A stretch of 17,050 nt of DNA, taken from positions 1 to 17,050 of the forward strand of contig CAIYYW010000004.1 in NCBI GenBank assembly GCA_903930515.1, written 5' to 3'. Below the pieces are notes generated by a model that worked only from the letters and a program-made list of their open reading frames with translations, searched no databases and was not told the DNA's origin. Shown here piece after piece: positions 6,542 to 17,050 of the stretch. The stretch's first letter is position 1. Each line of letters begins with the position of its first letter. The translations under genes and the position numbers were made by a program. Origin of the DNA: an uncultured delta proteobacterium (GTDB lineage: Bacteria > RBG-13-61-14 > DRUE01).

Positions 6542-6556
6542 GGAGGCAGCCGTTTG
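6542..6556 (+). promoter_or_regulatory. Ribosome-binding site fixing a TTG start
   Basis: ggagg at 6542-6546 stands seven bases before TTG at 6554. This ideal spacing supports TTG as initiation codon, since the next in-frame ATG (6575) would remove the conserved first strand of the product. Confidence 0.7.
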
Positions 6557-7138
6557 AATTTTGACAGAATATATATGGCTCTTTTACATTACCCGGTTTA
6601 CAATAAGACGGGGGAAGTAGTGGCGAGTTCCATCACCAACCACGACCTCCACGACCTGGCCCGGCTCAACGCCACTTTCGGCCTGGCCGGATACTTCATC
6701 GTCTGCCCGCTTGAGTTGCAGAGGAAACTGGCCGGGCGCTTGATCCAACATTGGCTGACCGGCCCGGGCGCGGAGCAAAACTGGACTCGCAAAGAGGCGT
6801 TCCAGCGCGCGAGCGTGGTGGCCGAGCTTGCGGAAGTAAAGAACGCGGTCCGGGAACAAACCGGGCAAGGCCCGAAGCTGGTCGCGACCACGGCCCGCGG
6901 CGCCGGGGGCCAGATCGGGTACCGGGCGTTGCGGGATAAAATGGATCAAGAAGCCGGTCAAAGCTGGCTGATCCTGTTCGGAACCGGCTGGGGATTGACC
7001 CGCGAGTTCCTGGATCAGGAAGCGGATTATTTGCTCAAGCCGATTCTCGGGAGCGGGGATTATAATCATTTAAGCGTGCGCTCGGCCTCGGCGATCATCC
7101 TGGATCGGCTCTTTGCGATTGACAGGACGGCTGATTGA
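6554..7138 (+). CDS. SPOUT-type SAM-dependent RNA methyltransferase (PF09936-like)
   Basis: A 194-residue protein of the family found between trmD and rplS in deltaproteobacteria, sometimes fused to TrmD. Recognition rests on the N-terminal IYMALLHYPVYNKTGEVVAS, SITNHDLHDLARLNATFGLA and YFIVCPLELQ, and on the C-terminal SWLILFGTGWGLTREFLDQ and LKPILGSGDYNHLSVRSASA. The latter looks like the knotted SAM-binding region of SPOUT enzymes, with the glycine-rich FGTGWGL loop. The family is predicted to methylate RNA; the target (tRNA or rRNA) is unknown to me. Translation starts at TTG 6554 with a good ggagg site. It lies 32 bases before rplS, so it is probably in the same transcript. Family call fairly sure; reaction inferred. 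Confidence 0.85.
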   Translation: MNFDRIYMALLHYPVYNKTGEVVASSITNHDLHDLARLNATFGLAGYFIVCPLELQRKLAGRLIQHWLTGPGAEQNWTRKEAFQRASVVAELAEVKNAVREQTGQGPKLVATTARGAGGQIGYRALRDKMDQEAGQSWLILFGTGWGLTREFLDQEADYLLKPILGSGDYNHLSVRSASAIILDRLFAIDRTAD

Positions 7139-7170: not shown

Positions 7171-7512
7171 ATGAACAAACTGGAGAAGTTTGAGCAGGAG
7201 AGACTGCGGAAGGATCTGCCCCAGATCCGCCCCGGAGACACGGTGCTGGTGCATCAGCGGATCAAGGAAGGCGACAAGGAGCGGACCCAGATTTTTGAGG
7301 GGACCATCATCCGGATCAAGAACCGCGGGCCGCGCACCACGATCACCGTCCGCAAGGTCTCTTATGGGATCGGCGTGGAAAAAGTCTTTCCGATCCACAG
7401 CCCGATCATGGAAAAAATTGAAGTGAAACAAAGGGGCAAGGTGAGACGGGCCAAGCTCTACTATCTGCGCGAGCTGGTCGGCAAGGCGGCCAAGATCAAG
7501 GAGCAGAGGTAA
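7171..7512 (+). CDS. rplS: 50S ribosomal protein L19
   Basis: A large-subunit protein at the 30S-50S interface. The 113 residues are full length: [34 protein letters not shown], the [20 protein letters not shown] block and the basic tail [20 protein letters not shown] are all canonical. An aaaggag ribosome-binding site precedes the ATG. It ends the translation cluster. A ribonuclease HII gene, a common next neighbour in other genomes, is absent here and replaced by the ATPase gene 12 bases downstream. Confidence 0.98.
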
Positions 7513-7524
7513 GCGGGACCGGCG

Positions 7525-9702
7525 ATGCAGCTAGTTGACCTGGTTTTGCAGGGCGTCAAGAAGTTTTCCCAGAGCCAGAAAATACCGTTCAAGCCAGGGT
7601 TCAACTTGATCTTCGGTACCAACGAGTCGGGCAAAACCACCCTGTTCAACTGCCTGATCGAGTTGCTGTTCCCCAACCGGATCGTTGACCTGAAAAAAGA
7701 TTGGCAGACCTGGCAGAGCGGGGGCCAGTCCCGGGCCGGCCTGACCATCCAGCAGAACGAGACCTTTTACCGGATCCTCAAGGATTTCAGCCAGAACGCC
7801 ATCAGCTTGTCGCGCCGGGCCCCGGGCAAGGACAAATTTGAGAGGCTGAGCGGAGACCCGAGCGAGATTTCCGCGATTTTAACCGAGGAGATCGGCCTGC
7901 CGGCTTATCAGGATTACAAGGTTTTATTTTTAGAAAGCAGGTTCTGGCTGCCCAGTTATACCGGCATGGAAAAAAACCCGGAAGAAGCCTCGGCAATTCC
8001 GGCAAGCGACGCCGATTCTGTCAAGCTAGAGCAGGTCTCCGATCTTGGCGGATCCTTTCCCGGGATAAGCCCGCCCGGGTTCGGCGGCCAGGCCATGCCC
8101 GGAATGACCGGGATACCGGGGATGCCGGGAATGCCCGGGATGCCCGGAATGCCGGGGATGCCGGATCTGATGGGGATGTCCGGAATTCCGGGATTGGGAA
8201 TGCCGGGAGACCTTCTGGGAGAGGATGACGGCCTGAGTTGGGAGGACAAGCAAAAACGGCTGGAGGAGCTTAAGGCGCAGAATGACCTGATCAAGGATGC
8301 CGATGAAATCCAGTATGAGATTGATGGGTACAATCATAAAATATTTGACCTGGACCGGGAGAAGGAAAAGGTCAAACTCTTTGATGGGGAGATCGCCGAG
8401 TTGGACCAGGAATTGGAAAAATATCGCTTCTTCCGCAACCTGCCGGAAAATATAGACCAACGGATCGCCCAGTATGATTCCATTGAAGACAACCGGGGCA
8501 AGGATATTGAAACGATAGATCAAAAAATGATCGGGCTGGATGAAGAGTTGAACTATTATATGGCTCAACCCATGTTTTACCAGCAGGCCTTTTTCAAGTT
8601 CGGCGTCGGCCTGATCGCAGCGGGAATTTTATCACTCATTCTCCGGTCGGTTCTGGGGATGGAATTCCTGCAATGGCTGGGAACCCTGATGCTTCCGGGA
8701 GTGGTGCTGGCCGGGATCGCGATGTGGAAATATTTAAGCGAGGAGAGCAAACGGACGGACTTGGGCGATACCCTGAAGCGGCTGGAAGACCAGAAGCGGA
8801 GCGTGGTCAAGGAATACCAGGTCCGGGGCGCGATTGTCAAACGGCTTTTGGAGCAGACCCACTGCGATGACACGCGGGAGCTCAAAGAAGCGCTCAATAG
8901 CTATCACGAGCTGGACGGCAAACGGAATGAACTATCGCGCAAGAAGAAGGAATTACTGATTAACCTGGACCTGGACAAGCTGAACCGCGAACAGAAGGAA
9001 ATTAGGGAAAAGATATCTCCCCTGGAAGAAAAACTGCGCGGGGTCGGATTGGCCGGAACGGATAAGACCGAGCTGAACAAGGAGATCGCGCGGCTGGAGA
9101 ACTCCCTTCAGCGCGCCCGCCAGATGGGATTGATCCGGCCCAAGCCCGGAGAAGCGGCCAAACCAGGCGAAACGGCCAAGCCCGGCGAAGCGGTTCCCTC
9201 CATCCCATCGGCGCCGGATGTGGGCAAGACCCAGATGGGGGTCGCTCCGAGGAGGGATTCCCTGCTCTTCTGGGAGCAGATCGCCGAGAGCGGCGGAAGG
9301 CTGTTCGGGTTAGGGACCGAGGAAATGTTTCAGCAAATCCTGTCGCGGGCCAATATCTATCTTCAGACCCTCTCCTCCAAGCGCTACCAGGAATTCCGCA
9401 AGGAGGAAAACCAGATCCTGGTTAAACTGGCCGAGATGGATCACGAGCAGGAGTTGACTCAACTGGGAAAGACCGCGGCCAACCTGGTTTACCTATCCCT
9501 TAAATTCGCCCTCCTGGAAATCGCGGCGCAAAAATATCAGTTCCCGATCCTGCTGGATGATCCCTACCTGGTGCTTGACGAAAACTGTTATCTCACCGTG
9601 GCCAAAACCCTCAAGCGGCTCAGCGCAAAAACCCAGGTGGTAATATTTTCCTCCCAAAAGGTCTTCGCCCAGGACGCCGACCAAGCCCTCAGTCTGGGCT
9701 GA
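7525..9702 (+). CDS. Rad50/SMC-like AAA ATPase with membrane hairpin and Met-Pro-Gly repeat
   Basis: A 725-residue protein with split-ATPase architecture, as in RecF/Rad50/YhaN-like proteins. The N-terminal lobe has Walker A GTNESGKTT (31-39). The C-terminal lobe has Walker B ILLDDPYLVLDE (675-686) preceded by a divergent signature, ELTQLGKTAANLVYLSLKFA (643-662), lacking the usual serine. Between them are: a flexible acidic/Gly-rich insert with Met-Pro-Gly repeats (191-229); predicted coiled coil (about 240-345); two hydrophobic segments (about 359-373 and 381-401) forming a membrane hairpin; a second coiled coil (about 405-530); and a Lys-Pro-Gly-Glu repeat linker (540-557). Membrane-anchored relatives exist among YhaN-like proteins, but I do not recognise this exact arrangement. 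The start lies 12 bases after rplS, suggesting read-through from the translation cluster. Role unknown: possibly a membrane-tethered DNA or chromosome-structure ATPase. Confidence 0.85.
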   Translation: MQLVDLVLQGVKKFSQSQKIPFKPGFNLIFGTNESGKTTLFNCLIELLFPNRIVDLKKDWQTWQSGGQSRAGLTIQQNETFYRILKDFSQNAISLSRRAPGKDKFERLSGDPSEISAILTEEIGLPAYQDYKVLFLESRFWLPSYTGMEKNPEEASAIPASDADSVKLEQVSDLGGSFPGISPPGFGGQAMPGMTGIPGMPGMPGMPGMPGMPDLMGMSGIPGLGMPGDLLGEDDGLSWEDKQKRLEELKAQNDLIKDADEIQYEIDGYNHKIFDLDREKEKVKLFDGEIAELDQELEKYRFFRNLPENIDQRIAQYDSIEDNRGKDIETIDQKMIGLDEELNYYMAQPMFYQQAFFKFGVGLIAAGILSLILRSVLGMEFLQWLGTLMLPGVVLAGIAMWKYLSEESKRTDLGDTLKRLEDQKRSVVKEYQVRGAIVKRLLEQTHCDDTRELKEALNSYHELDGKRNELSRKKKELLINLDLDKLNREQKEIREKISPLEEKLRGVGLAGTDKTELNKEIARLENSLQRARQMGLIRPKPGEAAKPGETAKPGEAVPSIPSAPDVGKTQMGVAPRRDSLLFWEQIAESGGRLFGLGTEEMFQQILSRANIYLQTLSSKRYQEFRKEENQILVKLAEMDHEQELTQLGKTAANLVYLSLKFALLEIAAQKYQFPILLDDPYLVLDENCYLTVAKTLKRLSAKTQVVIFSSQKVFAQDADQALSLG
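8095..8208 (+). repeat. Nine-base tandem repeat encoding Met-Pro-Gly
   Basis: Eight consecutive nine-base units of the type atgccnggn run from 8095 to 8166 with few changes (MTG, IPG and final MPD variants), then a looser Met/Gly/Pro-rich tail to 8208. The repeat is in frame in the ATPase gene and encodes a collagen-like Gly-every-third-residue tract at residues 191-228. Its palindromic cccggg content makes the opposite strand open as well, giving spurious Gly-Ile-Pro reading frames. Confidence 0.9.
9142..9195 (+). repeat. Three 18-base repeats encoding a KPGEAA-type linker
   Basis: Three adjacent imperfect 18-base units (9142-9159, 9160-9177, 9178-9195) encode KPGEAA, KPGETA and KPGEAV at residues 540-557 of the ATPase. 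This looks like a flexible linker joining the second coiled coil to the C-terminal ATPase lobe. Confidence 0.85.
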
Positions 9703-13272: not shown

Positions 13273-13536
13273 AAGAAGCGCAGGCATCCCGCCTTAAAGC
13301 GAGACCTGCGAACAAATAAATTTTCACCGCAAAGAACGCAAAGGTCGCAAAGAATTGGTCTGAGATATGAGATTTGAAATTTGAGAGTCAGCGCAAAGCA
13401 CTGATGCGCCGCAAAGCCGCAAAGAATTTTTCCTGTTTCCTTTGAATGTGCGAGCGCCTTCAGGCGCGACAAGGGCGGAGCCCTTGACCACTCTGTGCGA
13501 GCGACTTTGGGGGCACAGGACACGCGGAAATTCGGG
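13273..13536. repeat. Gene-free stretch with dispersed repeat fragments and small palindromes
   Basis: No plausible gene lies here. An imperfect dyad cgcagg/cctgcg (13279-13284 and 13305-13310) follows the solute-binding gene. Next come cgcaaag-type repeats (13327-13356 and 13390-13432; the latter shares a 15-mer with 1575-1589) and a ttgaaatttgag low-complexity string (13374-13385). Then two tight hairpins: gcgcc/ggcgc around ttca (13454-13467) and aagggc/gccctt around gga (13471-13485), bracketed by direct 10-base repeats tgtgcgagcg (13447-13456 and 13494-13503). The region resembles an accumulation site for small repeats next to a transposase-derived element. Confidence 0.6.
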
Positions 13537-13554
13537 GTCAGGTCTTCATTTGTA
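13537..13554 (+). repeat. Left terminal inverted repeat (18 bp)
   Basis: gtcaggtcttcatttgta, perfectly complementary to 13914-13931. Its last base is the first base of the ATG of the transposase remnant. The match stops on both sides, so the repeat length is exactly 18. Confidence 0.85.
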
Positions 13555-13890
13555 TGGCTCGGCCGTGGAGAATCCAATATCCGAACGCGGTCTATCATTT
13601 GACCAGCCGCGGGAAAGGTTGAGTCGGTGCCTGACTATCAAGAGCTTGCCCGGCCGGAGATTGATGTCACAAACGAACTTGAGCGGGTTGCCAATATTTT
13701 CGGAGTCCGGCGCCAGGACTTTCTCTGCAAGCGGAGAAACTTTCCGGCCCGGCTGGCAGGTTATTACCATTTGGTTGAGCAGTGCGGAAGGAGCCTGACC
13801 GCCGCGGGCTATGAAATGGGAGTGAAGACTTCTTCCGTGTCAATGGGGATCAAGTTTTTTAAAGAGATGACGGGAAAAAATAAAAGCTGA
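13554..13890 (+). pseudogene. REP-associated tyrosine transposase (RAYT) remnant with internal deletion
   Basis: ATG 13554 opens 22 codons, MARPWRIQYPNAVYHLTSRG ending KG-stop, which is the typical RAYT start (MARPLRI...YHVTSRGN). The frame then breaks: TGA at 13620-13622. A shifted frame from about 13627 to 13890 encodes a C-terminal RAYT-like segment of about 87 residues, including DVTNELERVANIFGVRR and a DnaA-domain-IV-like or helix-turn-helix region ending SSVSMGIKFFKEM. The whole Y1 catalytic core with HUH and Tyr, normally more than 100 residues, is missing. The remnant cannot act as a transposase. The C-terminal piece could still be read from GTG 13627, but no good ribosome-binding site is seen. 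Confidence 0.75.
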
Positions 13891-16360: not shown

Positions 16361-16564
16361 ATGGCAAAAGTAGTGGTAATTGAAAGCCGGTGCAAGAGCT
16401 GCGAGATCTGCGTCTCGGTCTGCGCCCGCAGTTGCCTGCGCGTTTCCGACCGCCACAACCAGGCCGGATATTTCATCGTGGAATTCATCGGCGAGGACAA
16501 ATGCACCGGTTGCGCGCTGTGCGGGGAAATGTGTCCGGATTTGGCGCTGCAAATTTACAAATAA
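16361..16564 (+). CDS. korD: Ferredoxin subunit of a 2-oxoacid:ferredoxin oxidoreductase (KorD/VorD-like)
   Basis: A 67-residue 2x[4Fe-4S] ferredoxin. The second cluster motif is standard (C48, C51, C54, C58-Pro). The first reads C11, C14, C17, C21 but is followed by Ala where Pro is usual, and an extra Cys lies at 25. Small ferredoxins of this size often form the delta subunit of 2-oxoglutarate or branched-chain 2-oxoacid oxidoreductases. The next start codon, 41 bases downstream, begins an alpha-subunit-like sequence (see the following entry), supporting the assignment. The start is three bases after the ApgM-like gene, so it belongs to the thrC transcript. Which oxoacid is used cannot be told. 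Confidence 0.8.
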   Translation: MAKVVVIESRCKSCEICVSVCARSCLRVSDRHNQAGYFIVEFIGEDKCTGCALCGEMCPDLALQIYK

Positions 16565-16571
16565 AAATTGT

Positions 16572-16591
16572 GCGCAGACCGGAGTCTGCGC
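16572..16591. repeat. Perfect 8-bp hairpin between the ferredoxin and alpha-subunit genes
   Basis: gcgcagac (16572-16579) and gtctgcgc (16584-16591) pair perfectly around the tetraloop cgga. No T-tract follows, and the next start codon is 14 bases away. It could affect processing or the relative expression of the two subunits, or be a small repeat unit. Confidence 0.5.
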
Positions 16592-16605
16592 CGCGAACAA
16601 TAGGA

Positions 16606-16659
16606 ATGAAGAAGCTGATCAAAGGCAATGACGCGATCGCGATGGCCGCGATTGAGAGC
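16606..16659 (+). pseudogene. 5' stub of a 2-oxoacid:ferredoxin oxidoreductase alpha subunit (KorA/VorB-like)
   Basis: ATG 16606 with a tagga ribosome-binding site opens MKKLIKGNDAIAMAAIES, the characteristic start of the pyruvate/2-oxoacid oxidoreductase alpha subunit (usual pattern KGNEAIAEAAI, then AGC...GYPITP). After about 18 codons the homology stops. The sequence turns into the end of a cysteine desulfurase on the other strand, and the frame reaches TAA at 16693-16695. The intact gene would be 350-380 residues. Either the gene is truly broken by a rearrangement or two unrelated sequences were joined during assembly. Confidence 0.65.
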
Positions 16660-17050
16660 CTGTCCACGATGGGAGGCAGAACGTCGAGAACATAATTAAC
16701 GTCATCCGGATTATTCTGCATACCGAAAGAGAACAGGATAGAACCCTGGGAAAGCTCGTGAGACAGCCCCATCGCTATGAGGACATGGGACGCCTTGAGC
16801 GCTCGCGAAGTGCAGGCCGAACCGCTTGTTACCCCGATTCCCTGCATATTTAAGAACAGGAGCATTCCCTCACCCTCGACAAATTCGATGCAGAAACTGG
16901 CGCTTCCCGGAATCCGGTTTGTCGGATGGCCGGTGATGATGACATTCTCGATTTTAGCGGGTAATTCCTTGAGGAGTGCGTCCCGCATGGGCGTTATTTT
17001 TTGCAGGCGCTCCGCCATATTCTGCCTGGCGAGTTCGGCTGCCTTTCCCA
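16656..17050 (-). CDS. Cysteine desulfurase (NifS/IscS), C-terminal part, truncated at both window end and junction
   Basis: The reverse strand encodes about 130 residues of a PLP-dependent cysteine desulfurase, which mobilises sulfur from cysteine for Fe-S cluster assembly. The frame is open from the window end (GKAAELARQN), so the start lies outside. Motifs: ITGHPTNRIPGSASFCIEFV, then the catalytic-cysteine loop GVTSGSACTSRALKASHVLI, AMGLSHELSQGSILFSFGMQ and NPDDVNYVLDVLPPIVDRL. Normal relatives continue for a few residues (a ...MSPLY-like end). Here homology stops at about 16656, and the frame runs on as a meaningless extension to 16485 over the ferredoxin gene. G+C is near 52% by hand count (16681-16980), below that of thrC and the ApgM-like gene. 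Family call firm; the missing tail marks a break point. Confidence 0.88.

Follow-up and report, generated by a model that had tools for sequence, protein, structure and literature searches.

Proteins of the Rad50 and SMC type are regarded as ATP-driven machines, and the tip of their arms is formed by a zinc hook in Rad50 and by a hinge in SMC. The YhaN proteins of YhaO-YhaN pairs have Rad50-like lobes that are joined by a coil with two mid-length hydrophobic segments, and the same arrangement is seen in the protein described here. It is encoded in a stretch of 17,050 nucleotides from an uncultured delta proteobacterium (the window) and belongs to a distinct Rad50/YhaN-like family. As read from its sequences, the family is marked by a predicted membrane hairpin at the coiled-coil tip, by proline/glycine (P/G)-rich linkers between head and arms, by the absence of an SbcD/YhaO partner from the locus, and by an eroding ATP site. 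The first-pass annotation had named the protein as a candidate for an undescribed system. As a unit the family is indeed without a description in the libraries searched, where no single model covers the whole protein, and the literature searched gave no account of it. The features of the locus are the following.

7171..7512, + strand: rplS (ribosomal protein L19), an open reading frame and the conserved upstream neighbor of the family
7525..9702, + strand: rplS-linked Rad50/YhaN-like protein with a predicted membrane hairpin, 725 aa
7525..7962, + strand: N-terminal ATPase lobe, residues 1-146 (Pfam SMC_N 1.7e-11, AAA_23 2.1e-10, AAA_27 4.4e-5; Rad50 in the PDB)
7615..7638, + strand: Walker A GTNESGKT, residues 31-38 (sequence and alignment)
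7963..8238, + strand: linker 1 from the N lobe to the coiled coil, residues 147-238, including the Met-Pro-Gly tract (P/G analysis)
8095..8192, + strand: 9-bp tandem repeat coding for (M/I-P-G)n (TRF and repeat finding; TRF score 77-105 at 8095-8164)
8239..8574, + strand: N-side coiled-coil arm, residues 239-350 (helices 239-298 and 310-346, pLDDT ~85)
8587..8643, + strand: hydrophobic segment 1, residues 355-373 (mean KD 2.15)
residues 375-380, + strand: apex loop between hydrophobic segments 1 and 2
8665..8724, + strand: hydrophobic segment 2, residues 381-400 (KD 1.7-1.8)
8725..9123, + strand: C-side coiled-coil arm, residues 401-533 (AF2 arm model)
9124..9249, + strand: linker 2 from the coiled coil to the C lobe, residues 534-575, with KPGE repeats (TRF and P/G analysis)
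9250..9699, + strand: C-terminal ATPase lobe, residues 576-725 (match to the Rad50 C lobe in the PDB, family profile)
9451..9510, + strand: degenerate signature segment ELTQLGKTAANLVYLSLKFA, residues 643-662 (alignment columns)
9541..9564, + strand: Walker B FPILLDDP, residues 673-680 (alignment)
9634..9636, + strand: Gln704, invariant in 86 of 86 aligned members

The open reading frame begins with an ATG 12 bases past the rplS stop at 7512, which confirms the gap annotated before. rplS closes a run that is headed by ffh (ffh-rpsP-KH-rimM-trmD-RNA methyltransferase-rplS). Between the two genes no terminator-like site was found, and promoter-like sites are not above chance. This fits co-transcription with rplS, which had been raised as a possibility and is rated here as probable, but does not prove it. 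The RNA methyltransferase between trmD and rplS (6554-7138, + strand) matches PF09936 with an E-value of 2.7e-67, and a homolog of this type is located just upstream of rplS in the sister genome G001 and in genomes G002, G045, and G190.

Membership in the Rad50/SMC superfamily, as first annotated, is upheld by comparison with solved structures. The N lobe matches archaeal Rad50 structures (E 1.7e-9, residues 17-103) and the C lobe matches Rad50 3qf7 (E 2e-4, residues 598-722), and with a profile of the family the Rad50 matches go down to 1e-22 and SMC structures are matched too. The AAA_27 model (PF13514) is reached by the window protein with 23.6 bits against a Pfam cut-off of 22 and is matched by only 6 of 15 family members (E <= 0.01); an archaea-specific SMC-related protein model is matched by 11 of the 15. 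The NCBIfam Rad50 equivalog is not reached (40.5 bits against a cut-off of 700). The full-length AF2 model, built with three sequences, is weak, with pLDDT values below 50 in the heads. The ATPase had also been termed split. It is not divided between two genes; its N and C lobes are separate and are joined via the coiled coil within one reading frame, as in every Rad50/SMC protein.

The extent of the family was delimited with a 15-member profile in 386 sampled genomes. Fifteen genomes match at E <= 6e-169 and the next-best match, which comes from YhaN-type pairs, lies at 3e-41, a gap that is taken as the family boundary. The family is spread over eight or more bacterial groups of phylum level: it is present in 3/3 genomes of the window's group and 9/9 of the G022 phylum; the G030 phylum, evidently the Myxococcota, has a match in 121 of 146 genomes, weak in a few cases; and other groups have it in 2/2, 2/2, 1/1, 1/1, and 2/5 genomes. 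The two nearest relatives of the window protein belong to an uncultured delta proteobacterium from lake sediment (CAIUDS010000652) and to Deltaproteobacteria bacterium RBG_13_61_14. Homologs of identical architecture and known function had been named as the finding that would speak against novelty; homologs are widespread, and none with a function was found. A viral origin of the protein was rejected, as the viral contigs searched hold no relative. In a quick tree that includes long branches, the 62 rows of the family and the 9 rows of YhaN fall on either side of a single branch (SH-aLRT 100). The phylum-level groups each form a cluster, which suggests that the gene is old and vertically inherited.

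In 82 of the 86 genomes whose neighborhoods were compared, the gene is directly preceded by rplS in the same orientation, and a contig end accounts for two of the four exceptions. Loci L131 and L141 harbor family members without a recognizable rplS alongside; yraN is still found downstream in both, and rsmI at L141 as well. The conservation of the rplS position in eight phylum-level groups, despite a sequence identity of about 20%, argues for a translation- or ribosome-linked factor that would tether ribosomes or the SRP pathway to the inner membrane, a specific version of the tether proposed below. The presence of ffh in the same run in the window, G001, G002, G022, G045, G169, G180, G289, and G307 points the same way. 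However, the S16-L19 operon is itself conserved, and a vertically inherited ancestral insertion would look alike. Moreover, ffh was not found upstream of rpsP in the G030, G177, and G151 stretches, and a ribosome-binding motif is not recognized. Position alone suggests the ribosome link, and the gene could have remained next to rplS because the operon is conserved, with no functional connection between the two; a translation- or ribosome-linked factor is in our judgment unlikely.

The arms were modeled separately from the heads. AF2 gives residues 236-533 a mean pLDDT of 81.5, with 57-65 in the hairpin itself. The helices of this model reach from 351 to 374 and resume from 381 to 444, which places the hairpin at the turn between the arms. 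An equally strong hydrophobic pair arises in 1 of 1000 shuffles of residues 236-540, and a mid-length pair is present in all 86 aligned members. The membrane hairpin of the first-pass annotation therefore stands as far as the two hydrophobic segments in mid-coil are concerned, but it is not unique, since all nine YhaN-type controls have the pair; these controls were drawn from the weaker family-profile matches, which include YhaO-YhaN type pairs. A fold search with the arm model returned generic coiled coils only, none at E <= 0.001. Judged by hydropathy, the hairpin may insert in the inner membrane. Its topology is weakly supported, as the lysine and arginine content of the flanks (0.17) is barely higher than that of the loop (0.134).

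Head and arms are connected by P/G-rich linkers. The tract with glycine at every third residue (residues ~189-231) and the KPGE linker are both present as annotated, and both are encoded by short DNA tandem repeats, the former by the 9-bp repeat and the latter by an 18-bp repeat at 9140-9193 (TRF score 80). The label collagen-like is not sustained for the former. The window protein scores 12 bits against a cut-off of 27.2 in Pfam Collagen, and regular MPG repeats occur only in the window protein and its sister, with other P/G/A-rich sequence at this place in the remaining members; a collagen-like function was rejected on these grounds. The Met-Pro-Gly tract looks like a lineage-specific, slippage-prone form of a family-wide P/G-rich linker. 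In the weak full-length AF2 model, linker 1 shows no predicted helix or strand (pLDDT <50). A P/G-rich linker 2 is found in 79 of 83 members compared to 2 of 9 YhaN controls.

The ATP site was followed in an alignment of 86 members, 67 from the G030 phylum and 19 from outside. The canonical Walker A and B motifs of the first reading are confirmed, and so is its signature without serine: the signature-Ser column is occupied by Gly648 in the window protein, followed by a lysine. The window protein and that of G001 read LGKTAANL where relatives have LSGSEREK or LSEGD, and both retain Walker A, Walker B, and the aspartate of the D-loop (LVLDEN, D685 in the window protein). This pattern of motifs suggests that the window protein has probably kept ATP binding and lost the signature contact in trans, so that weak or no hydrolysis is expected.

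Across the family, 16 of the 19 members from outside the Myxococcota have an intact Walker A (scored as GxxxxGK[ST]). Of the 67 Myxococcota members, 2 have one, and an example of the segment in this phylum is YLVLKPPSAEASPFAGL. The signature serine is kept in 11 of 19 and 10 of 67, respectively. Parsimony on the tree requires at least 4 changes of the Walker A state; if the motif could not be regained, 11 losses are needed. Several members outside the Myxococcota have retained Walker A and B together with a recognizable signature and may be active ATPases. Within the Myxococcota, members of family f263 (G388 and G422; loci L130 and L156, and nearly so L155) have a near-perfect Walker A that is lost in the other sampled members, which makes them useful for comparing ATPase and pseudo-ATPase forms.

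The loss of ATP-site motifs in many lineages could be taken to indicate a decaying relic without function, but this is already contradicted by the data on selection, reading frames, and conservation. dN/dS lies between 0.04 and 0.34 among close relatives, including members without Walker A, which places even these under selection. The frames are full length and intact in nearly all members, and the 121 matches in the 146 Myxococcota genomes are hard to reconcile with decay. Gln704 is invariant, and R83, Q9, G25, and L95 are nearly so in the 86 members. We give the relic scarcely any credence.

A true ATP-driven DNA repair ATPase of the YhaN/Rad50 type, with its nuclease encoded elsewhere, would be in keeping with the Rad50 homology of both lobes and with the intact Walker A and B of the window protein. 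It would also suit the many members in which YraN, a predicted nuclease, or RnhB is encoded just downstream; rsmI is another frequent downstream neighbor. In the window, however, the gene is followed by those of a TPR lipoprotein and then an extracellular solute-binding protein, and neither rnhB nor yraN is among the following genes there or in the examined G001 stretch. No SbcD-like gene is present in the window or the rplS-linked loci examined, whereas 8 of 9 YhaN controls have one directly upstream. A translated search with a YhaO-like nuclease recovered 5 of 5 control genomes; of 20 family genomes, 12 gave no match, and the window's own is among these. The signature serine is missing from the window protein, and Walker A has been lost by 65 of the 67 members in the Myxococcota. 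Taken together, this makes a repair ATPase quite improbable.

The window protein also matches the PADLOC model of LmuB with an E-value of 7e-16, which would suit an anti-phage defence ATPase of the LmuB, GajA, or PtuA type. This match is unspecific, as YhaN-type controls match LmuB as well or better (to 1e-19) and the best-matched stretch of the window protein is its coiled coil and hairpin. In addition, the gene has a fixed, vertically inherited place in a housekeeping operon, and an effector neighbor is absent. The defence system was rejected and is considered very improbable.

Elsewhere in the window, a small 4Fe-4S ferredoxin-like gene (16361-16564, + strand) overlaps, 3' end to 3' end, with a class-V aminotransferase gene (NifS-like; 16485-17048, - strand), of which the C-terminal end is present. 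The frame of the aminotransferase overruns the homologous region, with the match ending at residue 119 of 187, and its stop may therefore be lost or frameshifted. An 87-aa frame at 13627-13890 (+ strand) has no Pfam match; its C-terminal half presumably resembles the DnaA-type helix-turn-helix of REP-associated transposases, and it is possibly a transposase remnant. Antisense frames at 1480-1620 and 13480-13600 (- strand) encode similar peptides (LCVLCAFFGK and LCDLCVLCGE), which suggests copies of a short intergenic repeat.

Our preferred reading is that the protein is an inner-membrane-anchored scaffold or tether, an orphan relative of YhaN that has dispensed with ATP in most Myxococcota; we hold it tentatively, at somewhat less than an even chance. 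A YhaN-type relative would have come to lie behind rplS in a common ancestor of several phyla and would since have been inherited vertically in that position. The two lobes of the protein would form a Rad50-like head in the cytoplasm, from which two coiled-coil arms of about 110-130 residues may reach the inner membrane, where a two-helix hairpin would substitute for the zinc hook or hinge. The flexible P/G-rich linkers would hold the head loosely on the arms. Given these linkers and the absence of an Mre11/SbcD-type partner encoded alongside, an ATP cycle is probably not driving DNA processing via the arms. The head may instead bind a cytoplasmic partner, either nucleoid DNA or the translation apparatus. 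ATP could serve in some lineages as a conformational or dimerization ligand, with the family drifting from ATPase towards pseudo-ATPase. The fuller proposal, a widespread undescribed membrane-anchored Rad50/SMC-like family that is now a pseudo-ATPase behind rplS and that, in Myxococcota and a number of candidate phyla, physically connects the inner membrane with either the nucleoid or the translation machinery, is a possibility that we regard as rather doubtful in its entirety.

A deeply conserved branch with a membrane-anchored arm tip, flexible head-arm linkers, and repeated loss of the ATP site would amount to a natural experiment on the workings of this fold without ATP. The fixed place in the S16-L19 operon and the apparent presence in myxobacteria, some of which are cultured, make the function directly testable.

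Among the known systems, Lamassu LmuB gives a weak profile match to the window protein, best over the coiled-coil region, but recognized Lamassu neighbors are absent at the window gene. SMC, MukB, and archaeal SMC-related organizers share with it the common plan of a head and an antiparallel coiled coil. Where SMC has its hinge domain, the apex of the window protein consists of two hydrophobic helices and the short loop that connects them, and its arms differ from those of SMC-type organizers in their length of about 110-130 residues. Both head lobes align with Rad50/SbcC (e.g., PDB 3qkt and 3qf7). Unlike Rad50/SbcC, the window protein has no CxxC zinc hook (its cysteines are located only at 43, 447, and 687), and it combines a hydrophobic hairpin at the arm tip with short arms and a locus devoid of an Mre11/SbcD partner. 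YhaN is related in sequence, with E-values of ~1e-41 to 1e-12 against the family profile. It adjoins an SbcD-like nuclease gene, a neighbor that the window family lacks, and it retains LSxG (8 of 9 controls) and Walker A where the window protein reads LGKTAANL in the signature. Most YhaN proteins are devoid of the P/G-rich linker 2, and they form a tree branch of their own.
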